DNA of 64,000 nucleotides from contig NZ_CP139301.1 of the NCBI RefSeq assembly GCF_034092395.1, positions 1,674,001 through 1,738,000 on the forward strand, in the 5' to 3' direction. The notes beneath the pieces are model-generated. The model searched no databases. It was not told where the DNA came from and saw only the letters and a list, made by a program, of their open reading frames with translations. The number at the start of each line of letters is the position of its first letter. Positions within the stretch are counted from its first letter, which is position 1. The position numbers were made by a program, and so were the translations under genes. This document shows positions 8,601 through 29,510 of this stretch, one piece after another. Origin of the DNA: Prochlorococcus sp. MIT 1307. GTDB lineage: Bacteria; Cyanobacteriota; Cyanobacteriia; PCC-6307; Cyanobiaceae.

Positions 8601-8647
8601 CAGGTATTTTTACCTAATTAGTTAATTTTGGCAAGCCCTCTAGCTCA

Positions 8648-8693: not shown

Positions 8694-8784
8694 CCTGTTT
8701 TCTAAGAGAGATTGAGCTCAAAATCAACCCCCACAAGTAGTGTTTTTTCTGATCGGTTGTATAAGTCACACTATAAATAGCGTG

Positions 8785-11185: not shown

Positions 11186-11406
11186 TATGCCATTGCTAGA
11201 TCCTTAGCTAGTTGATTATGCATTTGGCAGGAGGAGGTGATTTAGATTGACAACTTCTGCGCTTAGAGCTCAAGCTCTTTCTACCTATTTTTAGTAATTT
11301 AATTAGTTGATTTCAGTAAAAGCCAAACATCGTTCCGCCTATTTTGACTAGTCCATCTAGATAAACTTGAGTATTATTTTGTTGTATTTTTTGTGTGAGA
11401 AATCAA

Positions 11407-12099
11407 GTGTCATTAAGAAAGAGCTTGCTTACGGCAAGCATTGTTTGCTCTTGTGTAGCTACTCCAGTTTTCGCTGATGTGTATTCTGCAGGCCAATCAG
11501 TAGAAGATGATAAAGGCTTTTACGGGGTACTTTCTGTAGGTATTGGTGATATCGATGGAACCAAGTGGGAATCAACTATTGGCGGGACAAAATATGGTGG
11601 TAAGGCACCTGTTGATGCAGGCTTCTCAGGGGAAGTAGGCATTGGATATGACTTTGGTGCGTGGCGTACTGATTTGACTTATGAGAATGGAGGTGGTGAT
11701 TTAGGTGATTGTACAGAAACTAAAGTTACAGGAACTAATTGCTCATCAACTAGTGGAGAGGTCGAAACTAACAGCTTTATGATTAATGCCTACTACGATA
11801 TAGATACTAATTCTAAATGGGAGCCTTACGTCGGAGCAGGAATTGGCACCACTAATTTTGATGTGGAAAACTTTACGGTTGGTGGCACAAAATATAAACT
11901 TGGTGATGATGATAGTACTACGTATCAATTAAAAGCAGGAGTAACTCATCCTGTTAGTGACAAGATGGATCTATTTGGAGAAGCAGCTTATAAAATTTAT
12001 GATGATATAGAAACTTCTACTAACGTTGCAGGAGTGAAATTTAAGGTGAAAGACAGTACAGAGTGGGTAGCTAAATTAGGACTACGCTATATGTTCTAA
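11407..12099 (+). CDS. Outer-membrane beta-barrel protein, copy 1
   Basis: This 230-aa protein has a signal peptide (LLTASIVCSCVATPVFA) and alternating amphipathic strands ending in LGLRYMF, the C-terminal aromatic signature of outer-membrane barrels. It fits the OMP_b-brl/OmpW-like group of eight-strand barrels. I choose GTG 11407 rather than GTG 11395 because the paralog at 27797 starts at the matching codon (MSLKKGLL) and both then have 230 aa. The leader contains GUGUGAG overlapping the ribosome-binding region, complementary to the Yfr1 core. Role is probably a small channel or surface protein. Confidence 0.82.
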   Translation: MSLRKSLLTASIVCSCVATPVFADVYSAGQSVEDDKGFYGVLSVGIGDIDGTKWESTIGGTKYGGKAPVDAGFSGEVGIGYDFGAWRTDLTYENGGGDLGDCTETKVTGTNCSSTSGEVETNSFMINAYYDIDTNSKWEPYVGAGIGTTNFDVENFTVGGTKYKLGDDDSTTYQLKAGVTHPVSDKMDLFGEAAYKIYDDIETSTNVAGVKFKVKDSTEWVAKLGLRYMF

Positions 12100-12128
12100 A
12101 CTTAGCCAAATTTAATTTTTAAATTGTA

Positions 12129-12160
12129 AAAAGGCGATATTTTTATATCGTCCTTTTTTA
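12129..12160 (+). terminator. Terminator after barrel gene copy 1
   Basis: AAAGGCGATAT pairs with ATATCGTCCTTT around TTTT, followed by further T residues. The GGCGATA core is shared with the hairpin behind the second barrel gene. Confidence 0.8.
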
Positions 12161-12184
12161 TTTTTAGATTTTACTTTCTATTTA

Positions 12185-12312
12185 TTGCCTTGGCGCAATG
12201 TTGTCATAGCTAGGGTCTCATAGTAGCCGATATCAGAGCAGCATATAAATCTGATACACCAGGAAGATGTGTCCACTTAGAGTAAGCAGCGACTATGGAT
12301 CACAAACATTAA
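12185..12312 (-). pseudogene. Degenerate relative of the 57-aa family
   Basis: The minus strand reads FICCSDIGYYETLAM, similar to the YCSDADY..YYE end of the 57-aa proteins. The flanking stretch with TATGGATCACAAACATTAAAT matches the DNA beside copy B (TATGGATCACCAAGCACTAAAT). No complete frame or start codon remains. Confidence 0.4.
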
Positions 12313-12397
12313 ATCTCTAGCTTTTTGAGCAATTCTTTGCTATCTGCCTTTCGTAAATCTTGATCCATTGGAAGAAGATCAAGTTATGTCGAAAAAG

Positions 12398-12949
12398 TTA
12401 TTTAAGACTTTTCGTAATAACTGCGTTTAGGAAAGCATGATTCAACTTTTCTAAAGGATCATTAGACCACAACACTAGAGCAGTCCTCATTGCGCAAGAT
12501 CCATGCCTATAAGCCTGTGTCATTTCTTGAGCTGTTAAAGAATGTGTACCTAATAATATTGTGAAGACTAGTTCGGGAGAGGCATGAGGGAGCTTCTTGA
12601 GCACCAATGATAATTCTTGCAAGGCCTTCTCGATAGTCAGTCCCTTTTCTTTGCAGTGATATTCAAATTCTTCCTTAGCAACTTCGCCATATTTCTTTGC
12701 TCCATGATCAGTAAAGATAACTCCGATGTTTTGTTTTAATGTAGCTGCACTCTTCTTTAAACCAAGGCTTTCCTCTATCTTTATGAGCCTCTCTTCAAGT
12801 AGAGCATCATTATCTAATTTGTGATTGTTGTCTAGTTTCTCAGTGACATATTGCGTCAAGGTTTTTCCTTCCTGTATCGCTTGTTTTTTTAGCTTTAACA
12901 AGAGCTCAGGTTCAATATTTATATTTAGCTGCGTTCGACCTTTCGCCAT
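12398..12949 (-). CDS. Ribbon-helix-helix protein, copy 1
   Basis: This 183-aa protein begins with a ribbon-helix-helix DNA-binding domain: strand RTQLNINIEPELLLKLKKQA and helix GKTLTQYVTEKL. A coiled-coil linker follows (LLEERLIKIEESLGL), then a C-terminal helical domain with GAKKYGEVAKEEFEYH and LLGTHSLTAQEM. The gene at 40077 has the same architecture with low identity. Such proteins usually repress their own or neighbouring genes. No toxin partner is adjacent, so I do not call it an antitoxin. Confidence 0.65.
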   Translation of the reverse strand: MAKGRTQLNINIEPELLLKLKKQAIQEGKTLTQYVTEKLDNNHKLDNDALLEERLIKIEESLGLKKSAATLKQNIGVIFTDHGAKKYGEVAKEEFEYHCKEKGLTIEKALQELSLVLKKLPHASPELVFTILLGTHSLTAQEMTQAYRHGSCAMRTALVLWSNDPLEKLNHAFLNAVITKSLK

Positions 12950-13481
12950 TTTCGTGGTTGACTATAAGTTAACTATATCTTTTTAAGAGGATAATTGCAG
13001 CTTCACTCAAACTCTTGTAAATTAATTCCTCTCTCCCTTTGAATTTCTTTGCTTGAACTGGCTATTGTTGAGACATGTCAGCCCTGGCAGCCAGTATGGA
13101 TGATCTTGTTTGCTGGAAAGGTTATCGATAGATCTAGATTAGTTAGTGGTAAGACTTTTGGAAGAAAGGTGTAGGGATTAAATTTGTTTCTTATAAGAAA
13201 GAGAATAAGTGCTTTGAAATAAATAGTTTTTACCTGGCTATGACTTCATGAGCGAATATGAGATTCTTGTTTAGCTATTGGAATAAAAGGTTTAGAGAGC
13301 TTTTGGGAGTTAGAACCTTGTTGGAATTAGAGCAAGCTTTCCTTTCTATTATTTTGACTAAATTATCTTCTTTGTGCTTTTAGTATTTCCAGTGTTTAGG
13401 GAGTATTAGGGGTAGCTTTAACCTATTGCCTTGATTGATTCCTTAATGAATGAGGGAAAGGCCGTCTGTGGAGACATCAGT
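12950..13481. other. Gap with no supported gene
   Basis: These 532 bases carry no convincing frame, RNA gene or terminator. They are AT-rich and presumably hold the promoter of the ribbon-helix-helix gene at the left edge. Confidence 0.5.
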
Positions 13482-14342
13482 TCAGGTTGAGGCATCTTGC
13501 TTGATTATTTCCCAGGCTTCTAAGGCTGTATCTGCATATTGAAAGAGCTTTAGGTGATCATCGGCAATCAGCCCAGAATCTGCAAGTAGTTGAAAATCAA
13601 TAGCTTTAGACCAATATTCTCGCCCAAAAAGAATTATAGGGATATTGTTCTTCATTCCAGTCTGACGAAGTGTTAAAAGCTCAAATAGTTCATCAAATGT
13701 TCCAAAGCCACCAGGAAAAAATACGGCTGCAATTGAACGCATTACAAAGTGAATTTTGCGCAACGCAAAATAATTAAATTTAAAACAAAGTCCAGGTGTG
13801 ATAAATGGATTTGGATTTTGTTCATTAGGGATACTGATGTTTAAGCCTATTGATTTGCAGTCTGCATCAAAAGCACCTCTATTAGCAGCTTCCATAATGC
13901 CAGGACCACCACCAGTAACAATTACATGAGAACGGCACTCCTTTATTTGATTTTCTCTAGACACAATTCTAGAAAACTCTCTTGCAGATTAATAGTAATG
14001 AGACATTAAATATGCTTTTTCTAACCTATCTTTTTCCCTTTGTAGTTGACTTGAATCCGTATTTTCTTCTAACATTCTACATGCTTCTTCTAGTTTTCGT
14101 TTTGCAGACAATCTGTCTAAGATGTTTGCTCCTCCGAATACAATAATAGTTGATAATATCTTTTCATTCTCGAGTATTTGTTCTGGCTTGCTAATCTCAA
14201 GCAACATGCGAACTCCTCGCATCTCATCGCTATTCAATAACTCTAAATCCTGATGAGCTAAATGATAAGAATTGGAACTGAGTATTAATTTCAGATTCTG
14301 TTTTGCAATTTCATTATCATCACTGCGTTCGTAGTGTTTCAC
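13482..14342 (-). pseudogene. LOG-family (lysine decarboxylase-like) gene split by a stop codon
   Basis: Two fragments, 117 and 160 codons, lie in the same frame, separated by one TAA at 13989-13991. Together they form a 286-codon LOG-family gene. The N-part has STIIVFGGANI and ends YLMSHYY. The C-part continues AREFSRIVSRENQ, VTGGGPGIMEAANRGA and the nucleotide-binding signature PGGFGTFDELFE. LOG-family enzymes are phosphoribohydrolases acting on nucleoside monophosphates. The C-fragment could start at GTG 13964 but would lack the first strand of the Rossmann fold. Probably inactive, unless the stop is an error. Confidence 0.8.
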
Positions 14343-14401
14343 CGTTGTCCTCTAATAGCACTTCGCCTCTTAGAAAGGATAGTAGATATAGTTCTTATTT
14401 G

Positions 14402-14728
14402 TCATAGATCTTGCGAAACAAGATCACACTTGGTGAGTTCTGGAGTCGCAAGTCGATCAAGAATTCTTGCCATGTCCACTGCTGAGAGTTCTCCATCGCT
14501 AGACCACTTCAGTGTCGTTTTTCGCTGAGCAGGGATTTGTTCTTTTGTTGCTGTCAGTAGATTATTTTTTCTCTCTAAGTCTTCTAAATACGCCTTCGCA
14601 GAATGTAAGTCACCTGAGTAAATACAACGACTTCTTGAGCAAGATCGAAAGATTCGACCAGAATCCCCTTTAAAACAAGTAATTGATCCACCTTGAGAAC
14701 TTATGAATAAAGGATTTTTTGTGATCAC
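14402..14728 (-). CDS. Hypothetical protein, GTG start coupled to upstream gene
   Basis: This 108-aa protein starts MITKNPLFISSQGGSITCF and has a Ser/Arg-rich segment (FRSCSRSRCIYSGDLHSAKA), then a helix and a Thr/Asp-rich end. The GTG start overlaps the stop of the 52-aa gene at 14725 by GTGA, and GGAGG lies just upstream within that gene. The pair is therefore almost certainly translated together. I recognise no domain. Confidence 0.6.
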   Translation of the reverse strand: MITKNPLFISSQGGSITCFKGDSGRIFRSCSRSRCIYSGDLHSAKAYLEDLERKNNLLTATKEQIPAQRKTTLKWSSDGELSAVDMARILDRLATPELTKCDLVSQDL

Positions 14729-14883
14729 TTTTCCTCCTTTTTTAGGTGAATATCAATACATTGAGTTAAGCAATGGATACCATCATCACTTAGAGAGCAG
14801 GCAGTAATGCATTCAAAATACTCGTCAATAGCATCGTGTTCGATGTTAACTTCATCCATTAAATGGACGCTTTTGGTAATCAT
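14725..14883 (-). CDS. 52-aa acidic protein, first gene of a coupled pair
   Basis: The frame starts MITKSVHLMDEVNIEHDAID and ends LKKEEK. It contains four cysteines in ECITACSLSDDG and HCLTQCID, an arrangement that could bind metal or form disulfides. The product is acidic and has no membrane segment. Its last codons contain the Shine-Dalgarno AAAAGGAGG for the next gene, and the stop overlaps that gene's start. Function unknown. Confidence 0.55.
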   Translation of the reverse strand: MITKSVHLMDEVNIEHDAIDEYFECITACSLSDDGIHCLTQCIDIHLKKEEK

Positions 14884-15021
14884 AAGTTGCACCTCTTTGA
14901 TTGGCTTACGAAACTAGCATTGAATCTATATTTGGGGTCATTATTATACGAAAGATAAAGTACCTATTTTCTCTTGCAAGTGGAAAAGAAGATTATAAAA
15001 AATAATATAGAGTCCTTCTTA

Positions 15022-15079
15022 AGTAATAAAAACTGACCCTTCTTTGTCCCCAAAGAAAGAAAGGCCAGTTTTTATTACT
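15022..15079. terminator. Bidirectional hairpin terminator
   Basis: AGTAATAAAAACTG pairs perfectly with CAGTTTTTATTACT, with an inner TTCTTTG/CAAAGAA stem. It has T-runs in both directions. It would terminate the minus-strand locus at 15080-15340. Confidence 0.75.
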
Positions 15080-15340
15080 CGTCTTTTAGAGAAGCTATTT
15101 GCTATTGATCGCCTGGGGCCAAGGATCTAGGTGTAAGGCTGATAAAGGCTCCATTGAGGGCACCTAAACGATGCAGAGGAGTGTCATTAATGCTTTAGAG
15201 GCCATCTATGACCAGCCCACTTGTAAAATGAGACTGTTGGAGCAGGGACCAGAAGTCAATTCGCTTCTATTTAATACTCAGGCGGAGTATCGATCATGAA
15301 CCCCTCCGGCTGACATTGGGGTAATTCTGTAGCAACCGCT
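15080..15340 (-). other. Conserved mini-locus 1: strong RBS, 8-codon peptide, PAPTVS block
   Basis: On the minus strand a GGAGGGG Shine-Dalgarno precedes ATG 15297 and a peptide MIDTPPEY with stop at 15271. The same frame resumes as LLVPAPTVS. Further on a second frame reads HRLGALNGAFISL and LTPRSLAPGDQ. A paralogous locus at 49370-49650 keeps the ribosome-binding site, DTPPE, PAPTVS, RLGALKG, the PRNMAPGGQ-like end and a terminator hairpin. Each copy has different stops. It is either a decayed small-gene family or a leader/structured RNA. Confidence 0.45.
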
Positions 15341-15955
15341 ACAAAAAGACAATGCGCCTTAATGCTTATTTCTTCTGACTTCTTTTGGCGATAAGGTTTG
15401 GCCTTTTATTGTTAATCGTGGAATGAAAACAGTTTTTTCCTTGAAGAGGCATTCACCATGGCTACTTCTAAGTTGTGATCCTGAAATTGAATATCTTTGT
15501 TCAATTTTGTTGCCAGAATTTTACTGGAATAGATATTTAAAAATCGCTAAGGCCTTTAGGTATTAATGGCTGTTTAATTTCTATTGAAAGGAGGTATATA
15601 TAGTCGTGTCAATAGATTTGGGCGCATTTTGTGGTATTGATTTTGAGCAGACTTTGGTGTCATCATTGCTTATAAGACAAATATTGTGTTTAAAAAGGGG
15701 CATAACATTGCCTTTATTAATTAAGACAAGGCCTTGCTTTATTTGCATATTCCAAATACTTGATAAAACTTTTTGTGGCGAATTTTTGTAATGGTATTTA
15801 TCTCTCTGGCGCTTTCGTCCAACACCTTTAATATTCTTAGACGAATATTTGCTCTGAAACTGACAGGAAGAAGAGACGAAATCTCCATCAATATTGCTTG
15901 ATTACATCAAGATAATTTGATTAGATTAATATGTGCCAATGCTGTTGTGGCTCTC
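15341..15955. other. Long leader region of pstS
   Basis: These 615 bases contain no frame I trust. A plus-strand frame at 15606-15791 has no domain and weak composition. The region should include the pstS promoter. I could not identify a convincing Pho box. Confidence 0.45.
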
Positions 15956-16945
15956 ATGACCTTCATAAAGAAGGGTCTTCTGCTCTCTTCCACCCTTGCT
16001 CTTGGTACAGGTATAACCACTGCCTGTGTCTCATCGGGTATATCTTCAAAAATCAACGGGGCGGGTGCAACGTTCCCAGCGAAGATTTATACCCGTTGGT
16101 TTTCCGATTTAGCAAAGACCGGTGGTCCCAAAGTGAACTACCAAGCAGTGGGATCTGGATCTGGGCGTAAAGCTTTTATCGATCAATCTGTGGATTTTGG
16201 TGCTTCTGATGATCCCATGAAAGCCATGGATATTGCCAAAGTCACTCGTGGCTTGGTTCAAATTCCTATGGTTGGGGGCACTATTGCTTTTGGCTATAAC
16301 AATCCAGATTGCGATCTCAAGCTGAGCCAAAAGCAAGCTGTAAGAGTTGCTATGGGCAAAGTTACTAATTGGAGTGAATTGAATTGCCCTGCAGGCAAAC
16401 TCCTCTGGGTTCATCGTTCAGATGGCTCAGGCACAACTAAGGTCTTCACGAACTCAATGCAGGCGTTCTCTAGTGAATGGACATTAGGAACAGGTAAATC
16501 GGTGGCCTGGCCCGAAGGAGTTGGAGGGAAAGGTAACGCCGGTGTTGCTGGAGTGATCCAGCAGACTCCAGGTGCTATTGGTTATCTCAATCAGTCTTAT
16601 ATCAGAGGCAACATTAAAGCGGCAGCATTGCAAAACCTTTCTGGAGAATTTTTAAAGCCAAGCACTAAAGCAGGTGCAATTGCTCTCAATGGAATCAGAC
16701 TGGATCAAAACCTCGCTGGAAAAAATCCAAATCCAACAGCTCGTGGTGCTTATCCGATTGCAACTTTGACTTGGATATTGGGGTATGAAACTGGTAATGG
16801 CTCTAAAACAAAAGCTATTAAAGATGCTTTGAATTACTTATTGAGCGATGATGTTCAAAATAAAGCTCCTAGTTTGGGATTTGTTCCACTTAAAGGGAAC
16901 ATCCTTAATAAAGCTCGTTTTGCTGTGGAGAGAATCAGCGAATAG
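15956..16945 (+). CDS. pstS: Phosphate-binding protein PstS
   Basis: This 329-aa periplasmic solute-binding protein of the high-affinity phosphate ABC transporter has a signal peptide ending GITTAC, which may be a lipoprotein cleavage site. The phosphate-site motifs are INGAGATFPAKIY, GSGSGRKAFI, DFGASDDPM and VHRSDGSGTTKVF. ATG 15956 is preferred over 15917 because the signal peptide then begins MTFIKKG. The rest of the transporter (pstCAB) is not in the window. The next gene is an arsR-type regulator, a linkage that fits arsenate entering through phosphate systems. Confidence 0.93.
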   Translation: MTFIKKGLLLSSTLALGTGITTACVSSGISSKINGAGATFPAKIYTRWFSDLAKTGGPKVNYQAVGSGSGRKAFIDQSVDFGASDDPMKAMDIAKVTRGLVQIPMVGGTIAFGYNNPDCDLKLSQKQAVRVAMGKVTNWSELNCPAGKLLWVHRSDGSGTTKVFTNSMQAFSSEWTLGTGKSVAWPEGVGGKGNAGVAGVIQQTPGAIGYLNQSYIRGNIKAAALQNLSGEFLKPSTKAGAIALNGIRLDQNLAGKNPNPTARGAYPIATLTWILGYETGNGSKTKAIKDALNYLLSDDVQNKAPSLGFVPLKGNILNKARFAVERISE

Positions 16946-16963
16946 TAAAAAGTTTTTAGATTA

Positions 16964-17293
16964 ATGGGATTAGTATTTGCTAAAAAAGATGTGCTTGCAA
17001 CAAGTCAAGCAAGTGGGCTTCTCAAGGCTTTAGCCGATCCACTTCGCATGAAAGTCATTGAGTCTTTGTCAGAAGGAGAGTGTTGTGTTTGTGATCTGAT
17101 GAAAAAGACAAGTCTTGCGCAATCACGCTTGTCATTTCATCTTAAGGTTCTTAAAGATTCTGGATTAATTACAGATCGACAAAGTGGCCGTTGGGTTTAC
17201 TACAAATTGGATCTTGAAGCGTTCCAATTGCTAGAAGATTGGATAGCAGATCTGAAACACACTTGCCATAGTGCAGCAAATACTAGTCCTTGA
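16964..17293 (+). CDS. arsR: ArsR-family metalloid-sensing repressor
   Basis: This 109-aa winged-helix repressor has ALADPLRMKVIESL (helix 1-2), the metal-binding ECCVCDLM motif (Cys40, 41 and 43; the family form is ELCVCDL), recognition helix SRLSFHLKVLKDSGL and wing DRQSGRWVYYKL. In the family, arsenite binding to these cysteines releases the repressor from DNA. It begins 18 bp after pstS and is probably co-transcribed. No efflux or arsenate reductase gene is nearby, so its target may be the pst/arsenic genes elsewhere or its own operon. Confidence 0.88.
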   Translation: MGLVFAKKDVLATSQASGLLKALADPLRMKVIESLSEGECCVCDLMKKTSLAQSRLSFHLKVLKDSGLITDRQSGRWVYYKLDLEAFQLLEDWIADLKHTCHSAANTSP

Positions 17294-17777
17294 ATATCAA
17301 TACTTTTCCACCTTTTAAAGTAATTAGCGACTTTCTAATTATTCATAGGTTCTATCCATTCCACCACCACTGTCCATGGCAAGCTCTTTGGTGATGACAA
17401 ATATTGTCTGAAAAGCACTTAAGACTTAATAGCTAAGGATATTTAGATCTAAAGCTATGTGCAGGATACGTTCTTCAAAATCTCGAATGATTTACGGAGA
17501 TGCATATCTATAACGAGATCCAGGTTGTCATAGCTAAAATTCCGCAATCTGTCTACTTAATAGATTCATAAGAAGAATTATCCTTGCAGGTTAATTGTAG
17601 TTGAAATGCATTCTCTCAAATTAACTCGGTGGCTTTGGGATAAGAACTTTTCAGATGTTCTTATGATTTACATCATTGGTTTATAGACCTAAGAGAGCTT
17701 TTATATTCAATGATTAAGAAGCTTATAGAGTAATTTGATGCCTATTATAATTAATTTCTAAAATAAGAGTATTCAAT
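17294..17777. other. Gap with no supported gene
   Basis: These 484 bases have no credible gene. A short TTTACGGAGATGCATATCT resembles the IYGDMY codons of the 57-aa family, too little to call. Confidence 0.5.
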
Positions 17778-18614
17778 ATGCATAAGTTCTTCAAAAAGGT
17801 TGCTTCGAATCTTATCCCTCCAGGAGTGTTTAAGCTGTATCAATTCCTCGCCTCAGGGAAAAGTAGATATACATATAAAGGCATTTTTAATACCTTTGAA
17901 GAGGCTAAGAATGCATCTGGACAGGATTCACCCTATCTAAATAAAGATTTTGATAAAGCAGCTGTTGATGAAACATACTCAGTGCTTTCCAAATTGAATC
18001 TCTACGGAAGGAGTGATCAACGTAAAGGGTTATTGCTGGAAATGATTTTAAAACTAAGATATCCCCATCGAAAGGCTACCATCCTTGATTATGGTGGTGG
18101 AAATTACCCTCAATATGCCTACCTTTCAAGAGAAATACAAGATATAACAAATACAATTATAATAGACAGAAAAGATCTCATACAACTAATTAGGCAAGAT
18201 TCTAGGTTCTCTAAATTGCCAGCTAATTTAAAGTTCTTAGATTTAAATGAATTTGAAGCTGCTAAGCTAAATATAGATATAGTATATTTTGGATCTACTG
18301 TTCAGTATATAAGTGACTTAATTTCGAATATTGGCAGCCTTTCTCAGAAAGGCTGCCAATATGTAATCATTTGCGATAGCACTTTTACTGAAAAGGATCA
18401 TGATATATATGTTCTGCAACAGAATGAGCCGCCTTCTGTCTTTCCAAATAAATGGCATTCAAGGAAAGACCTTATACAAAACATGAATAAAATTGGTTAT
18501 GACTTAATTCTTGAAAATCGCAGAAGACATAATTACAAGCATGATTCGATTAGGCCAGAAGATTTTTTTTATCAAACATTTATATTTGAGAGATGTAAGA
18601 CTGACAATGTCTAA
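17778..18614 (+). CDS. TIGR04325-type putative methyltransferase
   Basis: This 278-aa protein has the SAM-binding-like motif ATILDYGGGNYPQYA near residue 110. It also shows DIVYFGSTVQYI and HSRKDLIQNMNKIGYDLI, matching the layout of the TIGR04325 (LIC12133) family that occurs in polysaccharide and glycan clusters. The N-terminal YTYKGIFNTFEEAKNAS segment is also typical. It stands alone here with very AT-rich codons, which suggests acquisition. No partner glycosyltransferases are present, so its substrate cannot be inferred. Confidence 0.72.
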   Translation: MHKFFKKVASNLIPPGVFKLYQFLASGKSRYTYKGIFNTFEEAKNASGQDSPYLNKDFDKAAVDETYSVLSKLNLYGRSDQRKGLLLEMILKLRYPHRKATILDYGGGNYPQYAYLSREIQDITNTIIIDRKDLIQLIRQDSRFSKLPANLKFLDLNEFEAAKLNIDIVYFGSTVQYISDLISNIGSLSQKGCQYVIICDSTFTEKDHDIYVLQQNEPPSVFPNKWHSRKDLIQNMNKIGYDLILENRRRHNYKHDSIRPEDFFYQTFIFERCKTDNV

Positions 18615-18787
18615 ATTACTAGACTATATTTTTTATTGAATAGAGGGAAAGGAAAGTGGTACGTCTTTCATCATTTATTACTATTCTAGACAAGCAAAAT
18701 CATTAACTAAGCGTTTTTCTTGGAAGTCTTCTGTAACAATGCCTTCTTAGTAAGCATTAAGGAATGGAATTAGCAAGAGGCTTATTA

Positions 18788-19225
18788 TTATTGCCTTAGA
18801 GACTCTTTCTGTCGAATCTGGGGTAGATTCAAACCCTTAGATTTGCTTGGAATTTTACTTGCTAATTGAGTTAGATAATTATCAAGCTCTTCTTTAGTAC
18901 CTGTAAAGTTTTTTCCACATTTATCAAAAATATTATTGGATAAGGAAGCAGATAAATCTTCTCTTGGAGAAGACATTAGTTCATTCATAACAGGGGTCAA
19001 GAAAAAGCCTTGTGCAAGTTGAGGTGACAGTTGAGCAGCAGCACTTGCTCCGGATTCCTCAGACGTCATCCCTTTGGCAATAGACTTGCAAAATTTCTCT
19101 GCAAACTTCTGACTTATATCTGAAACAGCTGGTGACAAATCTGTAGCTGATCCAAATGATCTAATCGGAGTAAGAAAAAATGCTGTTGCGAAAAGACAGG
19201 CAAGTAGTAAAAGTAAACGACGCAT
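18788..19225 (-). CDS. Secreted hypothetical protein
   Basis: This 145-aa protein has a clear signal peptide (LLLLLACLFATAFFL, cleavage around SFGSA) and a soluble domain with two cysteines (FCKSIAKG, DKCGKNF) likely to form a disulfide. A helical C-terminus follows, with PSKSKG. A terminator-like hairpin ends its U-run directly at the start codon, so transcription may be attenuated. Domain and function unknown. Confidence 0.65.
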   Translation of the reverse strand: MRRLLLLLACLFATAFFLTPIRSFGSATDLSPAVSDISQKFAEKFCKSIAKGMTSEESGASAAAQLSPQLAQGFFLTPVMNELMSSPREDLSASLSNNIFDKCGKNFTGTKEELDNYLTQLASKIPSKSKGLNLPQIRQKESLRQ

Positions 19226-19254
19226 AAAAAACGGCCTGTGCAGACTCAGACCGT
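19226..19254 (-). promoter_or_regulatory. Attenuator-like hairpin abutting a start codon
   Basis: On the minus strand ACGGTCTG pairs with CAGGCCGT around AGTCTG and is followed at once by TTTTTT and ATG. Just upstream CAGGTA/TACCTG forms another stem that shares bases with it, allowing alternative folding. This layout suits transcription attenuation or a riboswitch-like leader. Confidence 0.45.
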
Positions 19255-19915: not shown

Positions 19916-19983
19916 ACAGCTAATTGACTTGATTGAGAAGTTTTTTGGCAGCTCTCCTTCTCTCATAGAGATTTGATAAGTAC

Positions 19984-20090
19984 TAAAAAAGCCTCTTGAT
20001 CAGAAGAGGCTTCATAAGACCGTTTGATCCCCATCACCCGGCCACTTGGATGACACTAGTCACTGTCAAGCGATTTGTCATCGGTAGATA
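19984..20090 (-). ncRNA. Candidate small RNA A (right copy)
   Basis: This is identical to the unit at 8785-8891 but on the minus strand, ending in the AAGCCTCTT/AAGAGGCTT terminator at 19985. It carries GGGTGATGGGG (minus strand, 20029-20039). The 5' end is uncertain. Confidence 0.4.
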
Positions 20091-20181
20091 CACGCTATTT
20101 ATAGTGTGACTTATACAACCGATCAGAAAAAACACTACTTGTGGGGGTTGATTTTGAGCTCAATCTCTCTTAGAAAACAGG

Positions 20182-20227
20182 TTCCCCATCACCCAGGTCC
20201 GGCGCGTTTCGCAAGGGCCTTTTTTTA
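20182..20227 (+). ncRNA. Candidate short RNA B (right copy)
   Basis: The promoter is TTGATT at 20148 and TAGAAA at 20171 with 17-bp spacing. The predicted transcript begins with CCCCATCACCC (20184-20194) and runs straight into the AGGTCC/GGGCCT terminator with seven T residues. Confidence 0.45.
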
Positions 20228-20274
20228 TGAGCTAGAGGGCTTGCCAAAATTAACTAATTAGGTAAAAATACCTG

Positions 20275-20361
20275 AAGTGAGGAGATGAGATTCTCCGAGC
20301 AGTGGAAACAAGGCAACACTTGCTCATGATCTCCAAGAGCCCGCCTTTGGCGGGTTTTCTT
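20275..20361 (+). ncRNA. yfr2: Yfr2-family small RNA, right copy
   Basis: This is identical to the left copy. A hairpin with loop GGAAACAAGGCAACA sits inside an outer GGAGAT/ATCTCC stem. The CCCGCC/GGCGGG terminator follows, with promoter TTGCCA (20241) and TAAAAA (20263). Flanking DNA differs on both sides, so both copies could be expressed from identical promoters. GTGAGGAG near the 5' end can pair with Yfr1. Confidence 0.8.
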
Positions 20362-21618: not shown

Positions 21619-21752
21619 TAACGATAGCTTACATTGAGATGTAAAAGTTGAAATTTAGAACTAAAGGATTGCAATATAAGGATACCTAATAATCTATTTC
21701 AAAGCAATTATCAGAATTAAAATTGAGAGATTAGATAGAAGGTTCTTTTTGA

Positions 21753-22160
21753 TTATTTATTTGTCCAGCGATACCATTTTGGCTTTTGAGTTAGCTTTTC
21801 ATTGATTCTTATCCTTATAAGTTCAATATCTTTCGCTTTTGGTTCCCAATCTTGATAAAGTTCATAAGGCCATTGTTCTTTTTTAAATTTGCGAGCTGGA
21901 TTAGGACTCATTCCACGCCTCTTCATTTCTGCTATAAGCTTTAAATATCTTTTATGAAGGTATTTCCCTTTATTATAAAAGAATTTAACGTGTCCAGTAT
22001 TTAATGTAAAATCCTTAGGTAATCGTTCTTTTATTTGATTCCAGCTTGGAGATTTTAATGACCGCTGTAGCGCAGATCCAACCATAAAAATCTCTCTATA
22101 CTCTGCCACTAAATGTTGATCAGAGAGTTCACTTGGGCTGACTAGATTTATTCTTGTCAT
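21753..22160 (-). CDS. Pyrimidine-dimer DNA glycosylase (T4 endonuclease V type)
   Basis: This 135-aa protein is close to T4 DenV in layout. It has MTRINLVSPSELSDQHLVAE with Thr2, whose amino group would be the catalytic nucleophile after Met removal, and Glu23 in EYREI. LNTGHVKFFYNKGKYLHKRY follows, with KLIAEMKRRGM and the C-terminal RINEKLTQKPKWYRW. The enzyme removes UV-induced cyclobutane dimers by glycosylase/AP-lyase action. Length matches T4 (138 aa). It is sporadic in bacteria, so acquisition is likely. Confidence 0.9.
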   Translation of the reverse strand: MTRINLVSPSELSDQHLVAEYREIFMVGSALQRSLKSPSWNQIKERLPKDFTLNTGHVKFFYNKGKYLHKRYLKLIAEMKRRGMSPNPARKFKKEQWPYELYQDWEPKAKDIELIRIRINEKLTQKPKWYRWTNK

Positions 22161-22318
22161 ATGAAGATGATTTTTTACTCATTTTCTTAATGAGCAATAG
22201 TACATCTCCCTAAGAAAGTATTTTGGGCTAGGCTTATCAACTACATTTCTCGTAAGCCCCTTTGCCTTGCACCTAAAGAGAAGCCATTACAGCTCGTTCT
22301 TGTTCTGAAGGAGTCAAG

Positions 22319-22600
22319 TTAACTATTTCCATTTTGATCTTTTTCTTTAGTTCTTTGCTCCTGAGATTCGCTGTATAGCTCGAATACCTTTTGCGCAACA
22401 GCCAAGGTTGATGCAACAAGTAGACCTATGGCAAAGAGCTGGAAGTAGCTTGCTTGTAGGTGCATCAATATCGTGTCAACGATTTCATAGTAAGGCGGCC
22501 TTTTACAGTCAGCATCAAAGTCGCGCATATCTCCGTAGATCACTTCTAAAAGTAATGTGCCTCCTTGTGATTACCGAAGCCCTTTGAGGTTATTAAGCAA
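22319..22600 (-). pseudogene. Frameshifted relative of the 57-aa family with a C-terminal membrane helix
   Basis: One frame reads ITSKGFGNHKEAHYF, matching ITSQGFDNYDDAY of the 57-aa proteins. A shifted frame continues LLLEVIYGDMRDFDADCKRP then PYYEIVDTILMHL. After this the frame adds a transmembrane helix (LFAIGLLVASTLAVA) and a charged tail, giving a 74-codon piece from 22543. It shows an ancestral or alternative C-terminus for the family. A single-base indel explains the break. Confidence 0.55.
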
Positions 22601-22891
22601 CACTGCGAATGAGTTTTCAATGAATGTTTGCTTGGACTTGAATCCTAGGCAACATTCTCTAGGAGGTTGGCTTTAAGGTGCTATTAGTCTGCAAGCTTCG
22701 AAGAAAAGATTATTGCCAGAAAAAAGATCTCGCCTGGAAGATGATATTTTCTATGATAGGTTGAACTCCAATAGGCTTGATTTAAAGCCTTTGATCTTAT
22801 ATGGGATCAAGATCTTAAATAGATCGTTTTAATCCTTTTAAAAATTAGATCAGGTTCTGTTCCTGTAATTGATCTTTTATTAGGTTAAAGC

Positions 22892-24709
22892 TTATTCAAT
22901 TAATTTGCCTTCGAAGTTAACTATTTGGTCGCTACTGCTAATAATGTCTTGATGATTCTTTTGTAAAGGAGCAATGTGATTTACGCATATATCTAGGTCA
23001 AGAGTACGCTTATTAAGCTTTATATGATAATTGCATCTTTCAGAAGGATTTAATTTGGGATAATCACTCCTTTGATGCGCTCCTCGGCTTTCTTTTCTTT
23101 GAAGAGCAGAGAGTATTGTTGCTTGCGCGGAAGTTACAGATGCCTCTAAATTAAAAATTTGAATAAGATCTTTATAACTGCTATCACTGCTTCGAATATT
23201 AACGCTTTCAATCATATCTTTAATTTCTAGAACTTTCTTTAAGCCTGTTTCTAGCAACTCTTTATCTTTTATAACACCACAATATTTCCACATAGTATTA
23301 CTTAAATGAAGTTGTAATGGTGTTACTGCCTCTGTGCCTTTTCTTAGAAACCTATTAATATTTTCATGGGCTTTTTTAATCGACTTATCTGATTTGATGT
23401 GTGAATTTATTTGCTTAGAGTAACTAATACTAGCTAACCCAGCTCTTTTGCCGAAAATTAAGATTTCAGCAAGTGAATTCCCTCCTAGGCGATTAGCCCC
23501 ATGAAGGCCTCCTGCTACTTCCCCAGCAGCATATAAACCTCTTATTGACGTGCAATGATCTTCAGGGCTTATGAATACTCCTCCCATGGAATAGTGAGCA
23601 GTTGGAGCTACCTCCATTGGGTGCTTTGAAATGTCAAGCATTTGTGTGTCTAAAAACTGCTTATAAATACTTGGCAATTTTTTCATTATGAACTCTTTGC
23701 TTTTATGACTAATGTCCAGGTAAACACCTCCGTTAGGTGTTCCACGCCCTTCCACTATTTCTGTATAATTCGCGATCGCAACTCTATCTCTGGTTGATAA
23801 TTCCATTCTTTTCTTATCATAATTAGCCATGAACCTCTCTCCTTTGCTATTTATAAGCTTTCCACCTTCTCCTCTTACTGCCTCTGTGACTAATGTTCCT
23901 GCGATTTCTTCTGGTAAAAGAATTCCTGAGGGATGAAATTGAACCATTTCCATATCAGTTAACTCACAACCTGCTTTTAGGCTTAGGTAATATCCATCCC
24001 CTGTATTTTCATTTTTTCTTGAAGAACTTCTTTTCCATATTTTCGTATGTCCACCCGTACAAAGAATAACAGCATTAGCTATGTGGACTGTCCTTTCATT
24101 TGTTCTGGTATTGAAGGACATAGCTCCAAAGCAAACTTTATCTCTAATAAGTAAGTCAGTAACATATTGATTGTCATCAATTGGAATATTTAGAGCATCG
24201 GCTTTCTTCAGGAGTGCTTTTAATATTGATAGACCAGTGTAATCACCTGAGTAACATGTTCGTCTATAGGTATGTGCCCCAAAATATCTTTGATCTAGGC
24301 TTCCATTTTCTAACTTCGCAAAATTTGCGCCCCACCTATCTATTTCTTTTACAAGAGTCGGAGACTCTTTTGCCATTAGTTCAATTTGTAGTGGATCTCC
24401 AATTCCATAACCTTCCAAATAGGTATCTGCAAAATGGTGTTCCCAAGAATCTTCGGGATCTATATTCCCAAATGCAGCATTAATTCCACCTGCAGCTAAA
24501 ACAGTATGTGAATCTGTTTTCACCCTCTTCCCCAAAACTAAAACTTCAAGCCCAGCCAACTTGACTTCTATAGCTGCTCTTAGCCCAGCTCCTCCACAAC
24601 CAATTACTAAGACATTGGATATTTGAGTTAAGTGATTGTTGATATACATCGCACGATTGCAAATTGATAGAGGGTTTAAGCAGGTTTGGAAACTTCTTGG
24701 AGCCAACAT
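22892..24709 (-). CDS. FAD-dependent succinate dehydrogenase/fumarate reductase-type flavoprotein
   Basis: This 605-aa protein has FAD-binding VLVIGCGGAGLRAAIEVK near residue 33, then HTVLAAGGINAAFGN and HTYRRTCYSGDYTG. The substrate region is MEMVQFHPSGILLPEE, LVTEAVRGEGGKL with the proton-shuttle Arg, and APTAHYSMGGV. C-terminal NRLGGNSLAEILIFGKRAG is also typical. It is SdhA/FrdA-like rather than aspartate oxidase. No iron-sulfur SdhB or membrane anchor is adjacent. Starts at 24709 or at ATG 24649 (MYINNHL), the latter closer to the family N-terminus. It may pair with a distant SdhB or act alone. Confidence 0.85.
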   Translation of the reverse strand: MLAPRSFQTCLNPLSICNRAMYINNHLTQISNVLVIGCGGAGLRAAIEVKLAGLEVLVLGKRVKTDSHTVLAAGGINAAFGNIDPEDSWEHHFADTYLEGYGIGDPLQIELMAKESPTLVKEIDRWGANFAKLENGSLDQRYFGAHTYRRTCYSGDYTGLSILKALLKKADALNIPIDDNQYVTDLLIRDKVCFGAMSFNTRTNERTVHIANAVILCTGGHTKIWKRSSSRKNENTGDGYYLSLKAGCELTDMEMVQFHPSGILLPEEIAGTLVTEAVRGEGGKLINSKGERFMANYDKKRMELSTRDRVAIANYTEIVEGRGTPNGGVYLDISHKSKEFIMKKLPSIYKQFLDTQMLDISKHPMEVAPTAHYSMGGVFISPEDHCTSIRGLYAAGEVAGGLHGANRLGGNSLAEILIFGKRAGLASISYSKQINSHIKSDKSIKKAHENINRFLRKGTEAVTPLQLHLSNTMWKYCGVIKDKELLETGLKKVLEIKDMIESVNIRSSDSSYKDLIQIFNLEASVTSAQATILSALQRKESRGAHQRSDYPKLNPSERCNYHIKLNKRTLDLDICVNHIAPLQKNHQDIISSSDQIVNFEGKLIE

Positions 24710-24995
24710 AAAGTATTAATTTTAATAACACCTCCGTAGATAAGATTATTTAACTTCTGTATTCCATTAGCACAGGATGTGTTTATGACATGTCAATGAT
24801 CTACTAGCGAAAAGGAGAATAATGAAATAAAAAGCTAGCCAATTTTTTTTTTGCTCTACCCACTAACAGTTAATTAACTTTTCTTGTTATGCTGGTTTAG
24901 TAGCAAATGCTACTAAAACGTTCGACTCTCTTTCGAGAGCCGCAGCTCGACTCAAGCCATGGAACGGGGACTTGAGCTAAAACGGAGAAAGATCA

Positions 24996-25097
24996 ATGTC
25001 TCTTATTTACAGAGGGAAAAAGTACAACCAGCAGAAAGAAGTCGCTGTTAAGGAGCATGTTCTCCTTACTTATCGTGGAAAGCAGTATCTACGTTAA
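24996..25097 (+). CDS. 33-aa DUF4278 miniprotein
   Basis: This tiny gene encodes two YRGxxY motifs: SLIYRGKKYNQQKE and LLTYRGKQYLR. A terminator follows, and AACGGAGAAAGATCA gives a good ribosome-binding site. The two-motif unit is the minimal DUF4278 domain. The longer relative at 6935 has extra motifs. The 190-bp leader is unusually long and could carry regulation. Function unknown. Confidence 0.8.
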   Translation: MSLIYRGKKYNQQKEVAVKEHVLLTYRGKQYLR

Positions 25098-25115
25098 ATT
25101 AGTCAAAATCTGGGA

Positions 25116-25152
25116 AAGAAAAAGGGCCTTCAAAGTAGGGCCTTTTTTTTTT
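25116..25152 (+). terminator. Terminator of the DUF4278 gene
   Basis: AAAGGGCC pairs with GGGCCTTT across a short loop with one mismatch, followed by ten T residues. Confidence 0.75.
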
Positions 25153-25324
25153 GATTAATTTGATATGACTGGTTTTTATTGCCTTTTGGTTTCGGTAACA
25201 ATATAAACCATGCTAATCAAATATTGCTTATTCTCGGATAATTAGCGATAAGAATATAAATACTCTTCAAAATATAAGCATTATTTGATGCTTATATTTT
25301 CTTGCTTTTAGTAGGTGAGGAATC

Positions 25325-25501
25325 TTGCTATCTTGCATCATTCACACTTTCGCTCTTGGCTGGCTAGTATCTACCTCTTTAGTACAAAACATGGGAGGAG
25401 TTCAATCAACTATAGGCATTTGCACAGGCAGGGAAACTATTCTTTACTTCTTTGGCCAATCAGAAGCTCTGGCTGCTCTTAACTTTTGTCAAAGTACGTG
25501 A
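25325..25501 (+). CDS. Possible 58-aa secreted or membrane miniprotein
   Basis: A TTG start preceded by GAGGA gives LLSCIIHTFALGWLVSTSLV, a signal-like hydrophobic start. A short soluble part follows with GICTGRETILYFFGQSEALA. Start codon and reality are uncertain because there is no ATG, but the ribosome-binding site is good and the composition is protein-like. Confidence 0.38.
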   Translation: MLSCIIHTFALGWLVSTSLVQNMGGVQSTIGICTGRETILYFFGQSEALAALNFCQST

Positions 25502-25588
25502 TTATGATGATCCATAAGTGAGGGAAAATACTTCCTGTTGTTTAAGACTTTTAAAGCTATTACCACTAGATTTTTTTTCAATCTATCC

Positions 25589-26083
25589 ATGACTTTACAG
25601 ATCGGTGATTCAATTCCTGATTTTTTGTTGTTTGATCAGGAAGGAAACTATAGAAGTAATAAGGAATGCATAGGTAAATTATTGGTACTATTTTTTTATC
25701 CTAAGAATGACACCCCAGGATGCATAGCTCAAGCTTGTGGGTTTCGTGATAAATATGACCTATTTAAACTCCTTGGAGCTTTGGTTTGGGGTGTTAATAA
25801 CGATAATCAAGAGAGTCATCGTAAGTTTGCAGAAAAAAATCAACTTCCATTTCCATTATTATGCGATGAGGAGAATTTATTAAGAAAACAATTTGGAGTT
25901 CCAAAGATATTAGGACTTCTTGATGGAAGAGTGACTTATATAATTGATTCAAAAGGGATCATTCGCCATGTTTTTAAAGACCTTCTAGATGGCCCCCAAC
26001 ATGTCATAGAAGCTTTGATAGTTCTGGAAAAAATGAAACTAGAGTTAAAATCATATAAGAGAATTGCAACAAAGATTTGTTGA
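25589..26083 (+). CDS. prxQ: Peroxiredoxin Q / BCP
   Basis: This 164-aa thiol peroxidase reduces H2O2 and alkyl hydroperoxides using thioredoxin. The motif FYPKNDTPGCIAQACGFRD shows peroxidatic Cys45 and resolving Cys50 in the 5-residue spacing of the PrxQ group. WGVNNDNQESHRKFAEK and FPLLCDEENLLRKQFGV follow the family pattern. ATG 25589 (MTLQIGDSIPDF) is the start that matches the family. The upstream TTG-initiated extension from 25538 is not needed. Cytosolic or thylakoid-associated defence against photosynthetic peroxide is likely. Confidence 0.9.
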   Translation: MTLQIGDSIPDFLLFDQEGNYRSNKECIGKLLVLFFYPKNDTPGCIAQACGFRDKYDLFKLLGALVWGVNNDNQESHRKFAEKNQLPFPLLCDEENLLRKQFGVPKILGLLDGRVTYIIDSKGIIRHVFKDLLDGPQHVIEALIVLEKMKLELKSYKRIATKIC

Positions 26084-26267
26084 CTTCTTTTATTCCTAAT
26101 AGAGAGCTGTAGCAATTAAGAAGGCCTAAGAGGCCTCAATAGCTTCTTTAATAAATTAGTATCAATAAAACAACTATTTAAATTTCGATGGCTGACGCTA
26201 ACACAAGAGATTTTTCTCACAAGTGACTAAGTAGACTATTGGATATTTATGGATTATCAGCAGCTAT

Positions 26268-26750
26268 ATGACCAAAATTTGCGGATATATTGCAGCATTG
26301 CTGTTTTGCTTCTTACTTCAACTAAGTCCTAGCCCTGCAATGGCATGTGTTGAGGGTTTGTCGTGGGGAATGGACCTTTTGAGTGTAGAGAGACATATTG
26401 GTCAGCCTTTAGTACCTATTCAAGGAGGGATAAATAATGATTTGTTTGAAGTTAGAGATTTCAAAATGAGCGGACTACCTGTAAAAAGCCTTCGTGTTCG
26501 TGTCGAAGATAAAAATGGTTTACAACAACTTGCTTATGAAATGGAATATAAAAATATGACTGAAGTCTTGGCAGGTTTAAGAAAGCGTTTTGGCCCACCA
26601 GTAGGTACTAGCCTTGATGTTGATGGAGGATACCCTCAACAACAATGGATTTGGCATACTGGAGAAGATGTGATTACCGCTATTAAGAGTGATAAAAGCC
26701 CCTTTCTTCTTTCTTATAGACCATCACTTCTAGACCCTTCGTTTCTTTAA
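26268..26750 (+). CDS. Secreted picocyanobacterial protein (intact copy)
   Basis: This 160-aa protein has a signal peptide (YIAALLFCFLLQLSPSPAMA) and a mature start ACVEGLSWGMDL. The domain contains VEDKNGLQQLAYEMEYKNM, GLRKRFGPPVGTS and QQQWIWHTGEDVITAIKSD. A paralog at window position 2-487 is interrupted by a stop at the Trp of LSWGMD. The domain has a small alpha/beta look but is not one I recognise. Likely periplasmic. Confidence 0.72.
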   Translation: MTKICGYIAALLFCFLLQLSPSPAMACVEGLSWGMDLLSVERHIGQPLVPIQGGINNDLFEVRDFKMSGLPVKSLRVRVEDKNGLQQLAYEMEYKNMTEVLAGLRKRFGPPVGTSLDVDGGYPQQQWIWHTGEDVITAIKSDKSPFLLSYRPSLLDPSFL

Positions 26751-26880
26751 AAAGAGTTAGTTAATCCGCTTCTTCGATTGATTTTAATTCTTCTTCTTAA
26801 AATTAAGAACAACTATTGATTAGCTAACAGCATAGATTGCTTTCTAATCGTTGCCTGTCGTGGCAGCATAAAAGAAGTTT

Positions 26881-27246
26881 ATGGAGTTAGAGATGCGCAT
26901 CTTTGAAACGGCCTTTTTAAAAGCCGTGGTTTTTGCCGCTTTATCGGTTGGTTTAATCTTTTCTTGCCTATTTGGAGGGTGGAAGAGTGTTGAGGCTCTC
27001 TCGAATCCTTTAGCAGGTAAGCCATTGGGTTTCGATGAGATGCTTCCTTATATGAGTAAGGAGCAACCTATATACAGGAGTGGGACAGGTGATAACGGAG
27101 AAAATTCTCTTGGAATTGTTATTGAACCATCCGATGAGAGCGAAGACCTATCAGGAACAAAGGAGGAAATGAGTATGGAAGATATTTTTGGGAGCGAACA
27201 AATCTTTCCTTTTGAACCAGGTCTTGGGAATGGAGGAAGGACATAA
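26881..27246 (+). CDS. Membrane-anchored acidic protein
   Basis: This 121-aa protein has one N-terminal transmembrane or uncleaved signal helix (FLKAVVFAALSVGLIFSCLF) and a long acidic, low-complexity tail (EPSDESEDLSGTKEEMSMED) ending PFEPGLGNGGRT. It lies on the same strand 130 bp after the secreted 160-aa gene. No domain recognised. An internal ATG at codon 5 is an alternative start. Confidence 0.6.
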   Translation: MELEMRIFETAFLKAVVFAALSVGLIFSCLFGGWKSVEALSNPLAGKPLGFDEMLPYMSKEQPIYRSGTGDNGENSLGIVIEPSDESEDLSGTKEEMSMEDIFGSEQIFPFEPGLGNGGRT

Positions 27247-27720
27247 ACGTTACTTCACCCATTATGCGAGCCATGATTGGATATCCAAAGATACTTTGCT
27301 GACAGCCCAGCTCATTGCAAGGTACATTAAAACTGGCGCTACAAGCTTTTGAGTATGACGACTTGATTTGCTTTTTAGGAACAAAAAAACACCCTAAGAT
27401 GATTAAGACGGATTGCTTTTTTAGCTTTTCAGTTTGGATATAAATCTTTCCTCTTTTGCAAAGCATTGATGTAAATCATGGCCCTTGCTGGCTTGCCTGC
27501 CTAATGCATACTTAGACTTATTAATTGCATGAAAGAATTCTCAGCGGAGTAATATTTTAGTGAAGAGATATAGCGACCACTATCATTTTAATGGCTTTTG
27601 ATAGGAATGAAGAAAGATTTAAGCCTACTAGAACAATTCCATACTGAGTACTTTCTTTGGTCGAACCTCTAGGAATAGAAAATGCAAGATTTTATCTTTA
27701 GTCTTTATTAGCATGTTAAC

Positions 27721-27790
27721 TTCAAAGCTAAAACACATCAAAAAAGGCGATACAAAAATATCGCCTTTTTTGATGTGTTTTAGCTTTGAA
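27721..27790. terminator. Exceptionally long perfect hairpin behind barrel gene copy 2
   Basis: A 32-bp arm at 27721-27752 pairs without mismatch with 27759-27790 around a CAAAAA loop. The inner part AAAAAAGGCGATA/TATCGCCTTTTTT is a normal terminator for the barrel gene. The outer 19 bp extend it beyond what termination needs. It starts 6 bp from the barrel stop codon and works in both orientations. Confidence 0.85.
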
Positions 27791-27796
27791 TATTAA

Positions 27797-28489
27797 TTAA
27801 AACCTCTGGCGCAGCCCAAAGCGGACGCCCCATGAATCAATATCGTTAATGCCAAATTTGACACCAGCTACAGGCGTATCAGAATTTATGTCGTCGTACT
27901 TTCTATAACTTGCTTCTGCCAAAAGGTCTGTTTTTTTACCGACCTCATAACTTACGCCTGCTTTTAATTGATAGGTCAGAGTGTCTTCAGAATCTAAATC
28001 ATAGTTAGTGCCGGCTACATTGATGCTATTGGGAGAAATTCTTGTACTCCCAATTCCTGCTCCTAAATAAGGAGTGAATTTTGAATTAGTAGGAAAATCG
28101 TAATAACCAGTCAACATATAAGTTTTTAATTCGCCAGTACCTTGACTGCCAGTTGTACAAGCAGCGTTCTGTTTAGTCTCTGAGCAACTGTCTAAATCAT
28201 GATCTGATTGGGTATAAGTGACATCTGTGCGCCATTTGCCCCAGTCATAACCAACACCTAGTTCGTAAGCAGCTCCTTCGGAACTTAATTGTGCCTTTCC
28301 CCCATAGGCTGTTCCACCAACTGATGTGTCCCACTTTGGATCACCTAGTGAGTCACTTCCTATGGAAAGCACTCCGTAATAGCCGGTTTTTTCTTCTGCT
28401 TGAGCTGGGGAGTAGATTCCTGTCACCGCTGGTGCGGCAAAAGCAGACAACGCAAGGCTGGCGCTAAGCAAGCCCTTTTTTAAAGACAT
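27797..28489 (-). CDS. Outer-membrane beta-barrel protein, copy 2
   Basis: This 230-aa paralog of the gene at 11407 has the same length. It has a signal peptide (LLSASLALSAFAAPAVTG), YYGVLSIGSDSLGDPKW, GVGYDWGKWRTDVTY, YLGAGIGSTRIS and terminal VRFGLRQRF. Both paralogs carry two Cys in the same surface-loop position. The leader TGTGTGAGGATTTTCAATG contains GUGUGAGGA, a 9-nt complement of the Yfr1 core, directly over the ribosome-binding site. Probably a small porin-like or adhesion barrel. Confidence 0.82.
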   Translation of the reverse strand: MSLKKGLLSASLALSAFAAPAVTGIYSPAQAEEKTGYYGVLSIGSDSLGDPKWDTSVGGTAYGGKAQLSSEGAAYELGVGYDWGKWRTDVTYTQSDHDLDSCSETKQNAACTTGSQGTGELKTYMLTGYYDFPTNSKFTPYLGAGIGSTRISPNSINVAGTNYDLDSEDTLTYQLKAGVSYEVGKKTDLLAEASYRKYDDINSDTPVAGVKFGINDIDSWGVRFGLRQRF

Positions 28490-29510
28490 TGAAAATCCTC
28501 ACACAAATTAGGATTTTTATTATTTACTTGAGGCTGACTAGAAAATCTAGGCGCACTAGACCAGTTCTTGTATTGTTTGATAGTTGAGATGGTAACTTTT
28601 TACTCATAAAGAGAGGGAGTTGAATTATCCTGGTGGCGTGAAAACACTTATGCCGACTACTTTTATGATTAATGTCGTAATGATTAAACCTTTTAAATAG
28701 ACTTTATGTATAGAGACTTCGAGTTTTATGAAGTGGCCATTTTTTTGTAGGGAGTTGGATTGTGTTGACTAATGATTTACTGGAAACTTGCCAGAAAATT
28801 ATTTTGGCGGGATTAGGTGTTGCTCATAGTTAAAAAATCTTCTCTGGCTGGCCGAATTCAACTCATAATATTTAGTTAGTGATTTATTCACCTCTTATTG
28901 TTTTGTGCTACCCGATTAAATTCTTTTGTATGTTCCTAGCTAAAAACTCTTGAATCAGGTTAGGAAGGAAAGCCAGCTAAGAGCGGTATTCATTTTCTTG
29001 GCCCCCGCGCATACTATTTGAATTGGAAGCACTGGAAGGGCTTTAAATCCTGTGCTGGATTGGCAATCACCTGCCGACCTATCCCTATAGTACATACGTT
29101 CCAGGGGTTGTTGGGCTAAATTTTGTGTCGTCAGTTTATCCTGGCTGATAGTCAAAGCTGTGTAAATCTTTGTATTATTCTTGAATCTAGTGGCTAAAAG
29201 TCGGGAAACCAGATGAGCCAGTCTAGGTATATTGCTGTTTGCTCGCATCTAAGACCTTGCAGGAATATAAACTTCGTATTTTGGAGACTCAAGAGCATCA
29301 AAAGATATAAAGAAAGTTTCAAATAGGGTCGATAAAAATAAGAAAAGATTTAATTTTAATATTTTCCCTTAGAAAGGGCCCAGTCAATATTGCATTAACC
29401 TGACTCAATCTGATGAACTATTTGCTAACCATTAATGCAATCAATACATAGATACGGCTTGGCTTTGAAGGCTTTTATAGATAATTTCTTGGACTATCCA
29501 GAACAAAAGG
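28490..29510. other. 1-kb gap with no supported gene
   Basis: Apart from the barrel gene leader at the left edge, I see no credible protein frame, tRNA or terminator. A minus-strand frame at 28955-29248 lacks domain, ribosome-binding site and protein-like composition. Confidence 0.5.

Follow-up and report, generated by a model that had tools for sequence, protein, structure and literature searches.

Candidate Yfr1-complementary sites over the start regions of two small outer-membrane β-barrel genes in Prochlorococcus sp. MIT 1307

A single enterobacterial small RNA (sRNA) of the MicA, RybB or OmrA type lowers the levels of several outer-membrane proteins through pairing at the start, as is proposed for the cyanobacterial sRNA Yfr1. 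These RNAs are unrelated to Yfr1 and are stress-induced, whereas Yfr1 is described as constitutive, with modulation by Yfr2. Repression of the Prochlorococcus MED4 genes PMM1119 and PMM1121 by Yfr1 was reportedly first described by Richter in 2010. Yfr1 itself is defined by an ultraconserved ACUCCUCACAC, unpaired between two stem-loops (PMC2190773). The two MED4 genes are named as som genes, with IntaRNA energies of -13.42 and -10.54, respectively (PMC3142192), and in Escherichia coli Yfr1 cut a PMM1121 reporter 4.7-fold, with fluorescence restored by Yfr2 (PMC6778093); that Yfr2-type RNAs are able to pair with the Yfr1 core had been noted earlier (PMC2518516). In Nostoc PCC 7120, the predicted and partly verified Yfr1 targets are enriched in outer-membrane proteins (PMC6974561). 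Here we describe Yfr1-complementary sites in the leaders of two small outer-membrane β-barrel genes, copy 1 and copy 2, which look like further members of this known circuit. Both lie in a 64,000-nucleotide stretch (hereafter the window, whose numbering is used below) taken from the complete genome of Prochlorococcus sp. MIT 1307, one contig of 2,032,419 bases (NZ_CP139301.1, positions 1,674,001 to 1,738,000).

The original prediction, made from the letters of the window, placed a 7-nt match to the Yfr1 core over the ribosome-binding region of copy 1 and a 9-nt match over that of copy 2, and both sites are present as described. In copy 1, GTGTGAG occupies 11393–11399 (+), seven bases 5' of the GTG start codon (11407–11409) of a gene at 11407–12099 (+). 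In copy 2, GTGTGAGGA occupies 28504–28496 (-), six bases 5' of the ATG start codon (28489–28487) of a gene at 27797–28489 (-). The open reading frame (ORF) list also offers an alternative in-frame GTG for copy 1 at 11395, within the motif; the aligned N-termini, MSLKK and MSLRK, back the chosen start codons of both copies. The two proteins, each of 230 amino acids (aa), share 47% identity and both exceed the cut-off of PF13505 (OMP_b-brl). The predicted structure of copy 2, computed from an alignment of five sequences, is a barrel (mean predicted local distance difference test score, pLDDT, 73.7), and its matches in the PDB are small barrels including NspA, OmpW and OprG.

Neither protein matches PF04966 or NF033921, and their 230 aa contrast with about 450–530 aa for OprB/por_somb porins; neither copy is a member of the Som/OprB iron-uptake porin family to which PMM1119 and PMM1121 belong. 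The original prediction had likened the two genes to porins, which Yfr1 is known to repress. The repression has its published basis in the PMM1121 reporter (PMC6778093), and the likeness holds for regulation and not for orthology, because the copies are PF13505 small barrels and the targets in the literature are Som porins. What the locus shares with the MED4 pair is the sRNA core, a site in the start region, a pair of barrel paralogs and a Yfr2 with a complementary motif (PMC6778093, PMC3142192). It differs in that its candidate targets are PF13505 small barrels of 230 aa, and in that the genome has Som targets of its own besides. A second difference concerns Nostoc PCC 7120, for which the available part of the account names OprB-like porins, TonB-dependent transporters, Omp85, TolC-like and peptidoglycan genes and no PF13505 small barrel among them (PMC6974561).

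The presumed regulator is intact in this genome. A covariance search with RF01116 returned one match (62.7 bits; cut-off, 38), which reads ACACACTCCTCACACCACC around the core. The original prediction depended on this core, and it is exact; in the predicted fold it lies unpaired between two hairpins. The gene is flanked by a guaB-like end on one side and a thioredoxin with WCGPC on the other (translated frames, named by eye without a family search). In score, in its unpaired core and in its guaB–trxA position, this is a Yfr1 of the described family. We regard it as likely that both sites are targets of trans-acting Yfr1, and possibly of a Yfr10-like relative too, with initiation blocked by pairing and released by Yfr2. 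In this scheme, the unpaired core CUCCUCACAC would pair with GUGUGAG(GA) over the start region of both small-barrel mRNAs; pairing would stop the ribosome from starting and reduce small-barrel synthesis, along with that of the Som porins bearing the same element; and Yfr2, through its GUGAGGAG, would bind the Yfr1 core and take Yfr1 away, releasing all targets at once. That the small barrels are repressed at all, in this direction and in the cell, is what we infer from the sites, with the steps after pairing carried over from MED4 by analogy.

Rfam Cyano-1, which we take to be Yfr2, has four matches above the cut-off in the genome, two of them inside the window. One, at 8538–8604 (-), carries GTGAGGAG, complementary to the Yfr1 core; the other, at 20271–20337 (+), does not differ from it in any of the 67 nt that match Rfam. 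All four copies carry GTGAGGAG. The suggestion that Yfr2 could compete for Yfr1 is supported by an already published competition between the two (PMC6778093); given the role reported there, the copy at 8538–8604 is likely a Yfr1 sponge. The two copies within the window, each together with a terminator, sit in the arms of a 378-nt perfect inverted repeat (8514–8891 and 19984–20361). Recombination between the arms would invert the intervening 11.1 kb, barrel copy 1 included.

What counts for the sites is where the motif stands. The pattern GTGTGAGN{3,12}DTG finds 41 rows in the genome, which correspond to 37 distinct GTGTGAG sites with ATG, GTG or TTG 3–12 bases downstream. On reading all 37, real gene starts were found at four, those of the two barrel copies and of two Som porins that are 507 and 512 aa long; the 512-aa porin matches the NCBIfam model por_somb (iron uptake porin) with 201.8 bits against a cut-off of 100. 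The other ORFs of at least 50 aa either form the inner part of a longer frame (L029 of 245 aa, preceded by 327 open codons, and L222 of 211 aa, preceded by 61) or fall within a longer ORF that is read in a different frame (L025 of 79 aa and L031 of 63 aa). Thus GTGTGAG is common as a word, yet where it stands at a gene start in this genome the gene encodes an outer-membrane barrel, the four real starts being two small barrels and two Som porins. A background sample, taken from the window and 20 pieces of 20 kb each, comprised 352 genes of at least 100 aa, with lenient starts. At least 7 nt of the core complement precede only three of them, namely both barrel copies and a start that is doubtful (window 77, no spacing).

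Som porins bear the element almost without exception. In this genome PF04966 matches five places, four of which are full-length Som genes, and their leaders match the core complement over 9, 9, 8 and 7 nt. When Som genes were picked by protein, irrespective of any site, 10 genomes gave 25 matches; in the leader region -25 to -1, 24 of 25 had at least 7 nt of the core complement, the remaining one, L355, having 6 nt. One of the 25, L362 (G119:C1:2172085), is a full-length Som gene whose 9-nt site is perfect but which has ATC where its neighbours' ATG start stands; this may be an extremely rare start codon, an error in sequencing or the mark of an inactivated gene. In the converse approach, GTGTGAGGA ahead of ATG or GTG was sought in 28 genomes and gave 98 rows against 37 for the reversed control; rows with GTGTGAGGAGT, the core's own complement, were removed and 65 distinct leaders were read. 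An ORF of at least 200 aa follows 49 of these, and 45 of the 49 have a Som signal peptide. Of the remaining four, copy 2 and L254 (G021) are small barrels, whereas L241 (G002) and L253 (G059) are neither Som nor small barrel.

The site also recurs on small barrels of relatives. Among 300 genomes drawn from the larger family, many of them incomplete, 114 have a PF13505 small barrel; the matches to Yfr1 in relatives, used below, come from such a draw as well. Of the 96 loci collected, nine had no usable start (L091, L119, L143, L146, L155, L158, L163, L170 and L181) and some rows were the same gene twice; the tree and the counts below therefore refer to 72 distinct proteins of 180–300 aa with at least 45 bits. 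Seven of the 72 leaders carry 7–9 nt of the core complement and none carries 6 (carriers: copy 1, copy 2, L089, L092, L095, L113 and L132), compared with 1 of 350 sampled own genes (Fisher test, p = 2e-5). One carrier is the nearest ortholog of copy 2, a protein of Prochlorococcus sp. AG-363-K07 with 67% identity (L041, identical with L089 of G004).

Both sites could be nothing but strong Shine-Dalgarno (SD) sequences, GAG and GAGGA, with a chance GTGT in front. GAGGA is indeed SD-like and stands at SD distance, and the Yfr1 core resembles the anti-SD, so that any SD pairs partly with it. In the background sample, however, an SD-like tetramer is found in as many as 91 of 352 genes (at any candidate start) and GAG in 118, but GTGT ahead of GAG occurs in only two genes, both barrel copies, and the site is therefore more than an SD. 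Moreover, an SD cannot be called the default here, since an SD-like tetramer is missing from 61 of the 72 small barrels; in copy 1 and L092, GTGTGAG stands without GAGG; and GTGTG is kept alongside GAGGA in the Som genes picked by protein. We consider this explanation unlikely.

Predicted pairing energies bear on a further possibility, that the site of one copy is real and that of the other accidental, be it the 7-mer of copy 1 or the reverse. By a simple hybrid-plus-opening score, with leader ends assumed 80 nt upstream, copy 1 reaches a total of -8.6 kcal/mol (hybrid -11.3, opening 2.7) and copy 2 one of -7.7 kcal/mol (hybrid -15.8, opening 8.1), while the four Som genes of the genome give -9.1, -13.1, -9.1 and -10.3 kcal/mol. 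(Folding Yfr1 together with entire leaders without constraints had yielded long, gappy duplexes, meaningless alone, and was replaced by this score.) Among 319 sampled genes, both copies rank in the top 2 to 3%; the energies support pairing without singling the copies out. The expectation that the two paralogs are regulated to different degrees is not supported by this comparison: the totals are about equal, with the order if anything reversed, and a ranking by match length is not upheld once the cost of opening is counted. An accidental site in one copy would suit the shortness of the 7-mer, which in copy 1 covers only 7 of the 11 core positions, and the scatter of carriers over the small-barrel tree. 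Against it, copy 1 is no worse in score than copy 2 with opening counted, the motif stands in one and the same register relative to the start codon of both copies, two of the five paralogs of this genome, with one doubtful case in 350 other sampled genes, and a small barrel of the same genus, L092, likewise has GTGTGAG without GAGGA. Coincidence in one copy seems improbable to us, about as much so as a mere SD.

Several observations weigh against assigning the two genes to the Yfr1 circuit. As a word, GTGTGAG is not enriched in the window (4 occurrences versus 3.83 expected), and the 41 genome rows compare with 37 for the reversed-pattern control; word counts were dropped as evidence, the 7-mer being at chance frequency in window and genome alike. 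The site is absent from 65 of the 72 small barrels, including the other three of the five paralogs of this genome and the nearest HL-type relative, L094, of the same clade; in the ortholog L089 the leader GCGTGAGGA forms 7 contiguous pairs with the core, compared with 9 in copy 2. On the tree the seven carriers need six changes, a number that shuffled labels equal in 105 of 500 trials. By energy, 2 of 317 other sampled genes do better than copy 1 and 5 of 317 better than copy 2. Two genomes without Yfr1, G046 and G084, still have the site on their Som genes, plus a Yfr10-like hairpin, so that presence of the site does not track presence of Yfr1. Finally, SD blocking as a general mode in Prochlorococcus is doubted in PMC6778093. 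A single ancestral site inherited by all small barrels is unsupported, given six changes for seven carriers; the distribution suggests instead that the site is not one inherited trait, and points to several gains or to one old site with many losses.

The genome also holds a second exact copy of the Yfr1 core, at G000:C1:1492724–1492734 (L219, L233), which the RF01116 search did not report. It lies in a hairpin loop and is followed by a terminator-like hairpin; the terminator piece folds weakly on its own, the piece being badly cut. Yfr10 as described in PMC6778093 likewise has the core in a hairpin loop, then a terminator, and the element at G000:C1:1492724 is probably a Yfr10-like gene. Sharing the core, its RNA may be a second regulator of the two barrels. 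That it, and not Yfr1, is the main partner would agree with those g40 and g11 genomes that have no Yfr1 match and retain a core copy (L206, L207, L208 and L210) and Som sites, and with MED4, where the targets of Yfr1 and Yfr10 overlap but are distinct (PMC6778093). The published repression of a porin reporter, however, was by Yfr1, and the small barrels of the three g40 genomes (L140, L157 and L161), which have the Yfr10-like copy but no Yfr1 match, carry no site, although these barrels are not close orthologs of the copies. We hold a main role for the Yfr10-like RNA to be very unlikely. Genomes without Yfr1 proved unusable as a natural experiment: they retain the Yfr10-like core and Som sites, and none of their small barrels is an ortholog of either copy.

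As to the surroundings of the two genes, consensus scans alone place a terminator-like hairpin with a T run 3' of copy 1 at 12133–12152 (+) and a long terminator-like hairpin 3' of copy 2 at 27732–27779 (-); a promoter scan directly upstream of the two copies gave none convincing. Elsewhere in the window, a Glutamine-II riboswitch (24916–24976, +; 68.9 bits) lies 19 bases 5' of a 33-aa ORF with repeated YRGKxY words, and a 135-aa ORF at 6935–7342 (-) has words similar to these repeats; the arrangement resembles the DUF4278/PirA kind.

Yfr1 repression of a MED4 porin and its relief by Yfr2 are already known; the new element is that the candidate regulon now takes in a second family of barrels. 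In the accessible literature on Yfr1, Yfr2 and Yfr10 and on Prochlorococcus outer-membrane β-barrels, the MED4 pull-down target tables apart, we found no PF13505 barrel as a Yfr1 target. The part that deserves a second look is the apparently repeated acquisition of the site among small barrels. Somewhat tentatively, and with the odds slightly against it, the GUGUGAGGA leader might be a dedicated outer-membrane β-barrel tag in picocyanobacteria, near-fixed on Som genes and gained repeatedly by unrelated small-barrel subfamilies, through which Yfr1 or Yfr10 together with the Yfr2 sponge would set the translation of the whole barrel fraction, also where Yfr1 has been lost and only a Yfr10-like RNA is kept. 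The small-barrel copies offer a clean test, because paralogs with and without the site share one genome. If the reading is true, Yfr1 would regulate the envelope, with sites that spread to further families of barrels, beyond the two porin test cases, and a constitutive Yfr1 with a variable Yfr2 sponge would let nitrogen or light stress shift many outer-membrane proteins together.

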